Source: Clostridiales bacterium
GTDB taxonomy: Bacteria > Bacillota > Clostridia > Lachnospirales > Lachnospiraceae
Reading direction: 5' to 3'
Length of the DNA: 64,000 bases
NCBI GenBank assembly: GCA_012839295.1
Contig: DUNO01000030.1
Span: forward strand, 1 to 64,000
Positions 40,054 to 43,535 of this stretch are shown here, piece by piece. Numbering within the stretch: position 1 is the stretch's first letter; each line of letters opens with the position of its first letter. Made by a program: the position numbers and the translations under genes. The notes under the pieces are model-generated. The model worked only from the letters and a program-made list of their open reading frames with translations, had not been told where the DNA came from and made no database searches.

Positions 40054-40082
40054 TTGACAAATCCATCCGATCCGCATATGCT
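40054..40082 (+). promoter_or_regulatory. Promoter of the mgtA transcript
   Basis: TTGACA (40054-40059) and TATGCT (40077-40082) with a 17-bp spacer, ending about 15 bp before the riboswitch begins. No other supported feature was found between the chemoreceptor start and this site. Confidence 0.65.
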
Positions 40083-40097
40083 ATATATAGTTAAACT

Positions 40098-40338
40098 TTT
40101 TCCGTTTCGGTAGGTGAGGCTACCACAGGGATACGGGTTGCTGCCGCAAAGTAGTGGAGACACTATGAGCAGGTCAACAGTCCATGTCGAATCCAAGGCA
40201 TGGAATAACGCAACTTCACCGCCCTGTGAAGCTAAAACTTGGACGATGGCGAGGAACGCTTTGAAAGCATTAAACGCTGTAGGTATGAGGATATATCCTC
40301 TGTCATCGTCATGATACGTTGGCAGAGGATTTTTATTT
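40098..40338 (+). ncRNA. M-box (ykoK) Mg2+ riboswitch with terminator
   Basis: The segment has M-box hallmarks: GGTAGGTGAGGCTACC near its start, GGGATACGGGTTGCTGCCGC, AGGTCAACAG in the middle and an AAGCATTAAACGCTGTAGG-like closing region. It ends in an expression platform: ATCCTCTG (40295-40302) pairs with CAGAGGAT (40323-40330), followed by a T-rich run. In this class Mg2+ binding favours termination, so the downstream Mg2+ ATPase is made when Mg2+ is low. Confidence 0.88.
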
Positions 40339-40358
40339 TGCCTGGAGGTAGGAATATT

Positions 40359-40463
40359 ATGGATAACAGCAATAGCTGTAAACAACATCTAAATGATGGT
40401 TTTATGGGGAGCAGGCCTGTTTTTACAGGTGCTTGGCCGCCGCGCGTCCGCGTGCGCCGCTAA
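40359..40463 (+). CDS. Small leader ORF 1 of mgtA (34 aa, ends PPRVRVRR)
   Basis: A 34-codon ORF with GGAGG ten bases before its ATG, starting right behind the M-box terminator. The peptide begins MDNSNSCKQH and ends AWPPRVRVRR. Its last ~9 sense codons are nearly pure G+C in an otherwise mixed region. Pro-Pro followed by Arg codons is prone to slow translation. A second intrinsic terminator lies 52 bases past its stop, so a role as a regulatory leader peptide is likely. I know of no named family. Confidence 0.55.
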   Translation: MDNSNSCKQHLNDGFMGSRPVFTGAWPPRVRVRR

Positions 40464-40514
40464 ACTAAAATGGTATGCCTGCCAATTTCCGGGCCAGCCG
40501 GATAAGTCACCCAG

Positions 40515-40547
40515 CCATCGTTTGAAATTTCTGGACGGTGGTTTTTT
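40515..40547 (+). terminator. Second intrinsic terminator in the mgtA leader
   Basis: CCATCGT (40515-40521) pairs with ACGGTGG (40535-40541, one wobble) and is followed by six T. It sits between two small ORFs and upstream of mgtA, so mgtA expression must read through it, which makes it a candidate attenuator. Confidence 0.65.
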
Positions 40548-40631
40548 CATGCCTTTTTAAGGCCTCAGGATACACGCAACATCCTATAAGGGTTTTATAT
40601 AAATATTACAAGAATAAGCGAGGTGAATGGA

Positions 40632-40724
40632 ATGGAAACCGGAAGTAAACACAGCCCCGACCCTGACGGGCGACCGAAATATGGCATGGGGAATGGAAAC
40701 GGGCTTTCCATCCCATCACCATAA
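40632..40724 (+). CDS. Small leader ORF 2 of mgtA (30 aa, Pro/Asp-rich)
   Basis: A 30-codon ORF with GAGGTG six bases before its ATG, ending 78 bp before mgtA. The peptide contains SPDPDGRP and ends in SIPSP. Alternating Pro and acidic residues recall the EPDPTP start of enterobacterial MgtL, where such codons destabilise ribosomes in low Mg2+. Its start region (GGAATGGAAAC, 40629-40639) is repeated at 40690-40700, and both can pair with TTTCCAT at 40705-40711. Translation is inference. An overlapping frame from ATG 40627 is less likely because its ribosome site would be only one base away. Confidence 0.5.
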   Translation: METGSKHSPDPDGRPKYGMGNGNGLSIPSP

Positions 40725-40802
40725 AATAAAACGAACGCCCATCAGCTTATGGGTTGTGCTTCCAACGATCTTTTCAAAATTAAGAAATGGAGGTACAGAC
40801 CA

Positions 40803-43535
40803 ATGCAGAGGACAAAAAACAATCCTAAAAACAATCCTATAGAAACAAAAAGAACACTTGTGGAAAGGGTACGCCGCGAGGAGCTAAAGGGCAGGCTGAA
40901 ATTCGCCTCCGCCTCCGAAGCTGATTTTTTACTCAGCAAGCTGGGGACGACCCGGGAGGGCTTGAGCGAGATCCTTGTGGACGCTTCCCGGGAGAAGTAC
41001 GGCAACAACCAGGTTACCCAGGGTAAGAAGGAATCCTTGCTCCAGCGCATCTGCAAGGCATTCATCAATCCCTTTACCGCCATCCTGCTCGGGTTGGCAG
41101 CGGTGTCGGCCTTCACCGACATTATCCTGGCAGAGCCGGGAGAAGCCTCCCCCATCACCGTTATCATCATTATGACAATGGTAATAGTCTCCGGCATCCT
41201 GCGGTTCGTCCAGGAAATAAGGAGCGGGAACGCAGCGGAGAGCCTGCTGAAAATGATTAAGACCACCACCTGTGTCCAGCGGCAGGGAGCAGGAAAGGAG
41301 GAAATCCCCCTGGAGGATGTGGTCGTTGGCGACATCGTGCATCTTGCGGCAGGCGACATGCTTCCGGCGGATATGCGTATCCTCCGCGCCAAGGACCTGT
41401 TCATCAGCCAATCGGCGCTGACCGGCGAAAGCGAGCCGGTTGAGAAATTTCCTGACGCTGCAAGTGGCAGCTGCAATACAATGACCGAATGCCCCAACCT
41501 TGCCTTTATGGGGTCAAATGTCATCAGCGGCAGTGCCGCAGGCGTGGTAGTAGCGACAGGGGATGATACAATGTTTGGCAGCATGGCAGAAAACTTAGGC
41601 AGCAAGCCTGTCCAGACCAGCTTTGAAAAGGGCGTAAACTCAGTATCTTGGCTGCTTATCCGCTTCATGCTGGTGATGGTACCCGTAGTTCTGTTCATCA
41701 ACGGCTTTACAAAAGGGAGCTGGATGGAGGCCGTCCTATTCTCCCTTTCCATAGCTGTAGGGCTTACCCCCGAAATGCTGCCAATGATTGTCACTACCTG
41801 CCTTGCCAGGGGCGCAGTGGCAATGTCGAAGGAAAAGACAGTTATCAAGAACCTGAATTCCATCCAGAACATTGGCTCCATGGATATTTTATGCACGGAC
41901 AAAACCGGCACACTGACACAGGATAAGGTAGTGCTTGAGCATCACCTTAACATCCATGGTGAAGAGGATCTGCGGGTTCTGCGCCACGCCTTCCTCAACA
42001 GCTATTACCAGACAGGCCTTAAAAACCTTATGGACATCGCCATCATTGAGGGGGTACTAAAGGAGCAGGAGGCCAACCCTGAGCTGTGCAAAATCACAGA
42101 CAGGTTCACAAAAGTGGATGAAATCCCCTTCGACTTTGAACGCCGCCGCATGAGTGTGGTGGTAGCAAACGGAAAAACACAGATGATTACCAAGGGTGCA
42201 GTAGAGGAAATGCTGTCGGTGTGCAGCTTTGCCGAGTATGGCGGAAAGGTTCTGCCGCTGACCGACGACATCCGGGAGTATATCCTGGGAAAAGTGGATG
42301 AACTAAACGATGAGGGTATGCGCGTCATTGCCGTAGCACAGAAGACCAATCCCTCACCCGTGGGCGCATTTTCAGCAGCAGATGAATCAGAAATGGTGCT
42401 GATGGGCTACCTGGCCTTCCTCGATCCTCCGAAGGAATCAACGGCCGCGGCAGTAAAAGCCCTGAAGGAGCACGGCGTAGACGTAAAGATCCTGACCGGC
42501 GACAATGACAAGGTGACACGCTGCGTCTGCCGTCAGGTCGGGATCCCGGTTGACCAGATCTTGCTCGGCTCTGATTTAGACAGCATGACTGACGAGACCC
42601 TCAGCAAGGCTGCCGAACATGTAAGCGTCTTTGCCAAGCTCTCACCGCAGCAAAAGGCACGGGTTATTACTGCTTTACGGGGGAATGGCCACAGCGTCGG
42701 CTATATGGGTGACGGCATCAACGATGCTGCAGCAATGAAAGCCTCCGATGTAGGTATTTCAGTGGATACTGCCGTGGATATCGCAAAGGAGTCCGCCGAC
42801 GTTATCCTGCTGGAAAAGGATCTGATGGTTCTGGAAAAGGGCATTATCGAAGGCCGCAAGACCTATGCCAATATGATTAAATATATCAAAATGACTGCCG
42901 CCTCCAACTTCGGCAACATGTTTTCTGTGCTGGCAGCCAGCGCTTTCCTGCCCTTTTTGCCGATGCTGCCGATCCAGCTGATCCTGCTCAACCTGATATA
43001 CGACCTGAGCTGCACAGCAATCCCCTGGGACAGTGTGGACAAAGAATTCCTGGCCAAGCCGAGAAAATGGGAGGCTTCCTCCATAGGCCGGTTTATGGTG
43101 TGGCTGGGTCCCACAAGCTCAGTGTTTGACATTACCACATATCTGCTGATGTACTTTATCATCTGCCCTGCCATGTTTGGCGGACAGCTGTTCCACCAGC
43201 TTACAGACCCGGTGTTGCAGGCACACTATATCGCCGTTTTCCAGGCCGGATGGTTCGTGGAATCCATGTGGAGCCAAACCATTGTCATTCACATGATACG
43301 CACGCCGAAGCTCCCCTTTATCCAAAGCCGTGCTTCGCTTCCCGTAACACTGCTTACCCTTGCCGGGATAGCCGGCCTGACCATCATCCCCTTTACCGGC
43401 CTTGGTTCGGCAATCGGCCTGGCGGCTCTGCCGACCGTATATTTTGCATGGCTGGTGCTGACTGTACTTTTGTATATGGCGCTGGTGACTATTTTCAAAA
43501 ATATCTTTGTCAAAAGGTATGGGGAACTGCTTTAA
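40803..43535 (+). CDS. mgtA: Mg2+-importing P-type ATPase (MgtA)
   Basis: A 910-residue P3B-type ATPase: TGES actuator motif (~206), phosphorylation site [11 protein letters not shown] (~364), KILTGDN (~563) and [11 protein letters not shown] hinge (~637), with about ten TM helices. It imports Mg2+ across the cytoplasmic membrane. The frame is open to 40749, but GGAGG nine bases before the ATG at 40803 fixes the start. The M-box upstream independently supports a Mg2+ role. GC content is higher than in neighbouring genes, so recent acquisition is possible. A strong terminator follows. Confidence 0.93.

Follow-up and report, generated by a model that had tools for sequence, protein, structure and literature searches.

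The mgtA gene of a Lachnospiraceae bacterium (Clostridiales bacterium, assembly GCA_012839295.1, contig DUNO01000030.1) is preceded by an M-box riboswitch and, between the riboswitch terminator and the gene, by a small open reading frame (ORF) and a further terminator. Riboswitches of the M-box class stop transcription at high Mg2+, and the question raised by this locus is what the additional signals may contribute. The window, i.e. the whole stretch of 64,000 nucleotides analysed here (positions 1 to 64,000, forward strand), had received a first-pass annotation from the sequence alone, which proposed translation-coupled attenuation stacked on the riboswitch, with slow translation of Pro-Pro and Arg codons altering the folding of the second terminator. 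The analysis described below makes it somewhat probable that the mgtA leader combines the M-box with two translation-coupled switches, one transcriptional (uORF1 and terminator T2) and one translational (uORF2).

Organization of the mgtA leader

The following elements were located upstream of mgtA (window coordinates):

40054-40082, + strand: candidate sigma-70-like promoter, TTGACA-17-TATGCT (consensus scan, 10/12)
40099-40258, + strand: M-box (Mg2+) riboswitch aptamer, RF00380 (109.6 bits, cut-off 44, E 1.6e-23)
40295-40334, + strand: T1, predicted M-box terminator, stem (40295-40330, then TTTTATTTT) of -19.5 kcal/mol plus T tract
40343-40352, + strand: uORF1 Shine-Dalgarno sequence, TGGAGGTAGG (from the sequence)
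40359-40463, + strand: uORF1, ATG start, 34 codons, MDNSNSCKQHLNDGFMGSRPVFTGAWPPRVRVRR (Shine-Dalgarno score 6; 23 counterparts including the window)
40389-40401, + strand: strand A, CTAAATGATGGTT, within uORF1, antiterminator partner of B (11 pairs with B)
40436-40460, + strand: G+C hairpin encoding the Pro-Pro/Arg end of uORF1 (MFE fold)
40477-40494, + strand: strand predicted to pair with the uORF1 Shine-Dalgarno region (MFE fold only)
40513-40524, + strand: B, 5' arm of T2 (terminator pattern and aligned leaders)
40533-40547, + strand: C, 3' arm of T2 (40533-40541), with T6 (40542-40547) (terminator scan and aligned leaders)
40618-40626, + strand: uORF2 Shine-Dalgarno sequence, GCGAGGTGA (score 7; region kept in 25 aligned leaders)
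40622-40638, + strand: R, uORF2 start region, predicted to be able to pair with G (MFE fold, window alone)
40632-40724, + strand: uORF2, 30 codons, METGSKHSPDPDGRPKYGMGNGNGLSIPSP, beginning METGSKHSPDPDGR (D/E2 rule; third-position variability)
40641-40676, + strand: D, uORF2 codons 4 to about 15, pairing with E (cognate pairing and covariation)
40704-40720, + strand: G, uORF2 end, predicted to be able to pair with R (MFE fold, window alone)
40736-40763, + strand: E, pairing with D (mgtA Shine-Dalgarno free) or with F (mgtA Shine-Dalgarno masked)
40789-40798, + strand: F, mgtA Shine-Dalgarno sequence, GGAGGTACAG (sequence and pairing)
40803-43535, + strand: mgtA, Mg2+-translocating P-type ATPase, 910 aa (TIGR01524, 1158.9 bits, and NF011702, both over cut-off)

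T1 is a predicted terminator platform ahead of a Mg2+ transporter gene, as in the M-box class. The first-pass annotation was accurate in sequence and coordinates for the M-box terminator and for the 34-codon uORF1 with its Shine-Dalgarno sequence and G+C-rich WPPRVRVRR end; its M-box was borne out by the RF00380 match, and the second intrinsic terminator with six T that it placed past uORF1, with mgtA downstream, was recovered as T2 (40513-40547, predicted stable in the window at -11.6 kcal/mol). The second leader ORF, uORF2, was absent from that annotation and was more widely found than uORF1. The final nine codons of uORF1 were nearly pure G+C (TGGCCGCCGCGCGTCCGCGTGCGCCGC) and formed a hairpin in the predicted structure.

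Everything past T1 lies outside the RF00380 family. Nine Rfam 15 matches were obtained for the region after T1 (40259-40810), all of them sub-threshold (E 0.55 or more), and no Rfam match in the window besides the M-box exceeded its gathering score. Searches with six leader peptides found nothing in NCBIfam and a single Pfam hit well short of its cut-off (E 0.28), and eight plasmid records contained nothing beyond M-box or mgtA fragments.

Acidic-start small ORFs upstream of mgtA

The mgtA loci compared here came from named genomes (the best 80 of 555 confirmed candidates in one scan), to which further relatives were added; 128 loci passed the identity and length filters and 119 were kept once identical start regions had been removed, with an M-box detected at most 1200 nt upstream in 54 of them. 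Small ORFs were recorded in the 750 nt ahead of mgtA when preceded by a Shine-Dalgarno match of at least 6 bases, and flanks searched by the same rule served as the control. The leaders are related by descent, and the p-values given below therefore overstate independence.

An M-D/E start was found in 90 of the 138 Shine-Dalgarno-preceded small ORFs ahead of the 119 mgtA genes vs. 47 of 500 in the flanks (Fisher p 2e-39 for an acidic codon 2, a value inflated by common descent); despite this kinship the contrast between leaders and flanks is large. Seventy-seven of the 119 leaders carried at least one acidic-start small ORF with a strong Shine-Dalgarno sequence, and 30 had no strong-Shine-Dalgarno small ORF. 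Clustered acidic residues (neighbouring, or with one residue in between) were present among the first codons of 38 of 68 uORF2, 9 of 23 uORF1 and 22 of 257 controls, and also of 11 of the 24 controls sharing D/E at codon 2. In the window, uORF2 showed E2 plus DPD at positions 10-12, and uORF1 a single early acidic residue, D2.

Counterparts of uORF1 were placed in 23 leaders, 21 of them with a detected M-box. This set was chosen by eye from listings, the M-D start partly guiding the choice, and the 21 of 23 members with D/E at codon 2 therefore represent a biased frequency; five further candidates (in L016, L041, L050, L056 and L117) were left out. The start codon was ATG, GTG or TTG (13, 7 and 3 leaders, respectively), and mean entropy over codons 2-10 was 1.41, 1.13 and 1.54 bits by codon position, a slight third-position excess. 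The conservation in relatives that the first-pass annotation had set as a check was found for the start and the Shine-Dalgarno sequence but not for the Pro-Pro/Arg end, C-termini and lengths being variable. Arg was enriched in the last 12 residues (45 of 276 vs. 241 of 3084 in control ORFs), and inverted repeats were visible at the uORF1 end in part of the alignment; a constraint on the peptide and a frequent hairpin at this place are not separable as causes of this enrichment. No codon run was conserved among the 23 uORF1, Arg being enriched without a run, and the leader is therefore not classed as an amino-acid attenuator. An arrest motif of the RAPP type was absent from the end of the window uORF1 (AWPPRVRVRR), and PP was rare among the counterparts. 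Codon usage was strongly biased to Ser AGT and Arg CGA, with 38 of 50 Ser codons being AGT in uORF1 vs. 15% in mgtA.

Terminator T2 and a putative antiterminator strand

A general-purpose scan for terminators over 5 kb returned 4 sites vs. 5.1 in shuffled sequences, so that T2 taken alone was not beyond chance. The terminator pattern CCRYC...GRYGG-Tn recurred in 22 of the 119 mgtA leaders, and in 19 aligned leaders 98.7% of B:C cells were paired, with covariation above every shuffle; T2 is credible because of this recurrence and of the B:C pairing across leaders.

Strand A, of the type AAACGATGG, could be placed inside uORF1 in the 21 T2-type leaders with a uORF1. In a free search it lay 21-42 nt past the uORF1 start in 18 of 21 leaders, the best partner being elsewhere in L087 and L097 (over the Shine-Dalgarno sequence) and in L112 (+49); in a search confined to +15 to +75 it lay 24-38 nt past the start in 20 of 21, and at least 8 of 11 A:B positions were paired in all 21 (best of many positions within that interval). 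The occurrences of A were spread over the three reading frames (8, 7 and 6), suggesting conservation of A at the RNA rather than the peptide level. When compared with dinucleotide shuffles, the A:B duplex had p≤0.05 for 15 of the 22 leaders, the window itself giving p 0.073. Cognate A:B duplexes were more stable than swapped ones (-14.43 vs. -11.36 kcal/mol, 0/5000 permutations, n=21, all leaders used), and when A was shuffled as a composition control the cognate advantage was -0.13 vs. -3.22 observed; in only 6 of 21 rows did the cognate partner rank first. In the alignment of 19 of these 21 leaders (L092 and L097 omitted), 94.1% of A:B cells were paired (1/500 shuffles) and covariation was 0.241 vs. 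0.175 in shuffles (0/500), whereas pairs with changes on both sides (3 vs. 1.5, 69/500) and further pair types (421/500) were not above shuffles. A:B and B:C share B, and the first strand lies within a leader ORF, which in terms of pairing potential is the layout of an attenuator.

In L085, uORF1 and T2 were followed by an MgtC-like ORF between the leader and mgtA. We take the ORF upstream of mgtA in L085 and L132 to resemble MgtC.

uORF2 and a proposed switch at the mgtA ribosome-binding site

A D/E2 small ORF conforming to the uORF2 rule was present in 68 of the 119 mgtA leaders, window included, and 16 of the 23 uORF1 leaders were among them. Three types were distinguished: type I, M[DE]x[GDE]S... 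(36 used); type II, MDS[DE]GSP... (10-11); and a third, MDxxP[RQ]..., in more distant mgtA. Mean entropy by codon position was 1.13, 1.00 and 1.56 bits for codons 2-14 of type I (n=36) and 0.44, 0.44 and 0.92 bits for codons 2-12 of type II (n=10); the greatest variability at the third position is a coding signature. AGT accounted for 90 of 171 Ser codons in uORF2, vs. 15% in mgtA, and Arg was often CGA, which points to an RNA-level constraint on uORF2. Pairing between D and E may explain part of this codon bias.

The MDxxP[RQ] uORFs before distant mgtA genes were seen in L148-L150, L152, L158, L161, L165, L170 and L171. In L150 and L170, a terminator-like hairpin lay near mgtA, after the uORF.

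Strand E, which ends about 40 nt ahead of the mgtA start, is complementary to D, and the duplex of the stretches searched in the window had a D:E energy of -35.6 kcal/mol. For type I, cognate D:E duplexes were more stable than swapped ones (-28.67 vs. -21.69 kcal/mol, 0/5000, n=36, all leaders used), composition accounting for -1.58 of the D:E gap of -7.19; for type II the cognate advantage gave 7/5000 (n=11). Only 6 of 36 rows had the cognate partner in first place. Twenty-five of the 36 type I leaders were aligned, five having been dropped and L064, L065, L075, L079, L081 and L082 excluded after their duplexes were inspected. Among these 25 leaders, 75.4% of D:E cells were paired, 59 cells were changed on both sides vs. 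31.1 in shuffles (0/500, in a set partly chosen after the duplexes) and covariation was 0.344 vs. 0.256 (0/500); pairs with changes on both sides (15 vs. 13.3, 121/500) and pair types (68/500) were not above shuffles. RNAalifold, unprompted, returned seven D:E helix pairs.

For E:F, 87.2% of cells could pair and cognate partners beat swapped ones (0/5000). E:F was rejected as a covarying helix, its covariation not being above shuffles (57/500). Shuffle tests of single leaders were modest, with p≤0.05 for E:F in 29 of 107 and for D:E in 17 of 65. Altogether, both uORFs with their acidic starts are supported by the sequence comparison, as are the putative pairings A:B, B:C and D:E, and E:F more weakly.

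Folding model with a ribosome footprint

An equilibrium folding model, in which a ribosome footprint was placed codon by codon, was applied to the uORF1 and uORF2 parts of the leaders. For the window without ribosome, the model gave T2 at 0.95 and the mgtA Shine-Dalgarno sequence free at 0.03, the start regions of both uORFs being themselves predicted to be paired. A ribosome on uORF1 codons 1-4 lowered the predicted T2 merely to 0.58-0.81; on codons 5-6 the modelled antiterminator reached 0.88 and 0.67, with T2 at 0.12-0.32, and from codon 7 onwards the antiterminator was predicted at 0.02-0.05 and T2 at 0.93-0.96. On the investigator's reading of the model, this early-codon effect was present in 12 of 21 leaders and not clear in 9. 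A ribosome late in uORF1 was predicted to favour the antiterminator in L040, L058, L071, L079, L081, L094 and L095, but not in the window.

For uORF2, mean accessibility of the mgtA site was 0.22 without ribosome, 0.07-0.11 with a ribosome on codons 3-17 and 0.23-0.33 on codons 23-29, the last values implying that finished translation of uORF2 is not clearly an OFF state. Twelve of 25 leaders behaved as proposed below, one in the opposite way and 12 without difference; the predicted effect in the window was small (mgtA Shine-Dalgarno sequence 0.26-0.27 free at best, codons 23-24). Statistics for the window by itself are no more than moderate, and the argument depends on the family as a whole; results with a late ribosome, like the counts of pairs and pair types, speak less clearly for the stacked switches.

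Proposed mechanism and alternative explanations

We infer the translation of the uORFs, the directions of the switches and low Mg2+ as the signal, ribosome drop-off being proposed by analogy with MgtL and MgtQ. In the first of three layers, the M-box and T1 would halt transcription at high Mg2+. In the second, ribosomes held at, or lost from, the first codons of uORF1 would leave A free, and A:B would form in place of T2 (ON), whereas elongation past codon 6-7 would cover A and let T2 form (OFF). In the third, free D would pair with E and leave the mgtA Shine-Dalgarno sequence (F) open (ON), whereas a ribosome on uORF2 codons 3 to about 20 would unwind D, and E would mask F (OFF). Good early translation would thus mean OFF at both layers, and early loss or pausing ON; the ON state would need ribosomes that load and then either remain on the first codons or dissociate there. 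Low Mg2+ would act through the instability of ribosomes that synthesize acidic N-termini (M-D/E, D-P-D), in the manner of MgtL and MgtQ.

The same strands could also work without sensing by translation: A/B/C and D/E/F may be real switches that respond to folding of the M-box, to Mg2+ or to the rate of transcription, the uORFs being incidental. The occurrence of A in any frame, the Ser AGT and Arg CGA bias (an RNA-level constraint) and the high stability of D:E would fit such switches, but the Shine-Dalgarno sequence and start were kept in uORF1 while the start codon itself varied among ATG, GTG and TTG, third positions varied most in uORF2 and codon 2 was acidic far above the control, which makes a purely RNA-driven system unlikely. 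Very unlikely is an arrangement in which T1 and T2 are two independent terminators for a tight OFF state and uORF1 merely protects the transcript against Rho or degradation, sensing nothing; both terminators are predicted to be stable in the window, and against their independence stand the cognate A:B pairing and the narrow range of spacings between the uORF1 start and A (18 of 21 or 20 of 21 leaders, according to the search). That the uORFs encode small functional proteins, e.g. regulators of MgtA or MgtE, we consider highly improbable: the N-termini are conserved with third-position variability, and the peptide of the Mycobacterium tuberculosis M-box uORF2, Rv1805A, has a homologue outside an M-box locus according to the accessible text of PMC12810186, but C-termini and lengths vary, the conserved part overlaps the pairing strands, and the six peptides searched had no NCBIfam match and no Pfam match over cut-off.

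The trigger originally proposed, slowing of ribosomes at the Pro-Pro/Arg end of uORF1 with an effect on T2, in response to proline or arginine supply or to EF-P, was rejected, since neither conservation nor the window's folding model spoke for it. The codons are present in the window, Arg is enriched at uORF1 C-termini, a late ribosome is predicted to favour the antiterminator in several relatives, and a response to proline is described for mgtP and the mgtA leader ORF of Salmonella (PMC3641672, as far as its accessible part goes). Nevertheless, PP occurred in just 2 of the 23 uORF1 peptides and was absent from that of Lacrimispora celerecrescens (L058, MgtA 81% identical, the closest named relative among the best 80 of 555 candidates), which ends in NRCFRQRLL, and a ribosome on codons 26-34 left the modelled T2 of the window at 0.94-0.96, leaving this explanation just as improbable as that of functional small proteins. 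The wider proposal, translation-coupled attenuation on the M-box, is plausible; uORF1 and T2 recur in relatives, with a covarying strand A within uORF1.

Comparison with known leader systems

To our knowledge, the mgtCBR leader of Salmonella is without an M-box. It resembles the present leader in having two serial leader ORFs before a Mg2+ transporter operon, mgtM and mgtP, and differs in that these respond to ATP and proline, as described in the part of PMC3641672 available.

In E. coli and Salmonella, MgtL precedes mgtA, and ribosome drop-off at EPDP in low Mg2+ turns mgtA on (PMC11282234, accessible part). As in MgtL, a short uORF preceded by a Shine-Dalgarno sequence was found here in the leader of a Mg2+ transporter, the MgtA pump, with acidic early codons and alternative leader folds; the resemblance consists in the acidic start and was judged without alignment. 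The proposed sign would also be that described for MgtL in the accessible text of PMC11282234 (drop-off, mgtA on). The same source, in the part seen, describes a Rho-dependent terminator for enteric mgtA. One leader peptide is annotated there, whereas the window leader combines an M-box with two uORFs, a strand that may mask the RBS and, for termination, the predicted intrinsic T2. MgtQ, which precedes Salmonella mgtB, likewise has acidic early codons and lies over a strand that controls RBS masking of the transporter gene; it differs in its 8 codons, in its location in the mgtC-mgtB intergenic region and in that ribosome occupancy frees the RBS (all from the accessible part of PMC8092293), while occupancy is predicted to mask the RBS here. 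The leader would work like MgtL or MgtQ and like an intrinsic-terminator attenuator, without being classed as MgtL.

The nearest published layout found is the M-box leader of M. tuberculosis pe20, in which the M-box is followed by a poorly conserved uORF1, a highly conserved uORF2 and switching between Shine-Dalgarno and anti-Shine-Dalgarno pairing; the peptide, which is specific to mycobacteria, and the mode of termination, with a Rho-dependent, translational expression platform, are different (PMC12810186, accessible part). The mgtE motif of PMC11109978 is, in the text available, confined to Thioalkalivibrio. Among the matches listed in the open-licence literature, no report of leader peptides ahead of mgtA or mgtE in Gram-positive bacteria was found.

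Acidic-start uORFs with other riboswitches and transporters

Of 27 M-box leaders in which no mgtA was detected, 11 also had an acidic-start small ORF, and in the ten of these 11 that were tested the next gene encoded MgtE by Pfam (L010, L013, L027, L028, L030, L031, L033, L038, L054 and L057). As a group, these mgtE leaders showed D:E-like pairing in which cognate strands beat swapped ones (7/5000, n=10). In two further leaders, L169 (G024, from the genus of the window) and L068, a NiCo riboswitch (RF02683; L169:108-207, 77.4 bits, and L068:2621-2721, 66.7 bits) took the place of the M-box and was followed by uORF2 and an mgtA-type ATPase; L169 had uORF2 with neither a T2-type terminator nor an M-box. 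The presence of uORF2 before mgtE and behind NiCo riboswitches suggests that the module is tied to Mg2+ transport genes and not to one riboswitch or transporter.

Two other arrangements were observed. In L207 (G014:C197:13500-18827), near a contig end, an M-box and a MDASSSYIEPEGRSRSR uORF lay about 0.86 kb upstream of an rpsJ-like gene; the genes downstream are presumably rpsJ and the S10 ribosomal operon. A membrane-protein-like ORF of about 100 aa, MDFTCIFFGVLFTIAG, recurred about 470-530 nt before mgtA, with no M-box detected, in L096, L100, L102, L104, L129, L130, L135 and L159.

Biological meaning

Strands A/B/C and D/E/F delineate candidate structured RNA modules, to which the present searches of Rfam 15 gave no match. 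More broadly, and with a probability that we place a little below even, the acidic-start leader peptides may form a family of nascent-chain Mg2+ sensors in the transporter leaders of Gram-positive bacteria, acting independently of whether the riboswitch is an M-box, a NiCo element or missing and of whether the transporter is MgtA or MgtE, and sharing one RNA switch, in which uORF codons 4-14 free or mask the RBS. Together with the uORF1/T2 attenuator, three stacked controls would then operate in a single leader. In the literature found, Mg2+ sensing by leader peptides through ribosome stability is documented for enteric bacteria; if the sensor family is real, the enteric type of principle would exist in Gram-positive bacteria too, stacked with a direct Mg2+ riboswitch and serving two unrelated transporter families, and it would become possible to ask by direct test whether Mg2+ is generally signalled by the instability of ribosomes on acidic N-termini.
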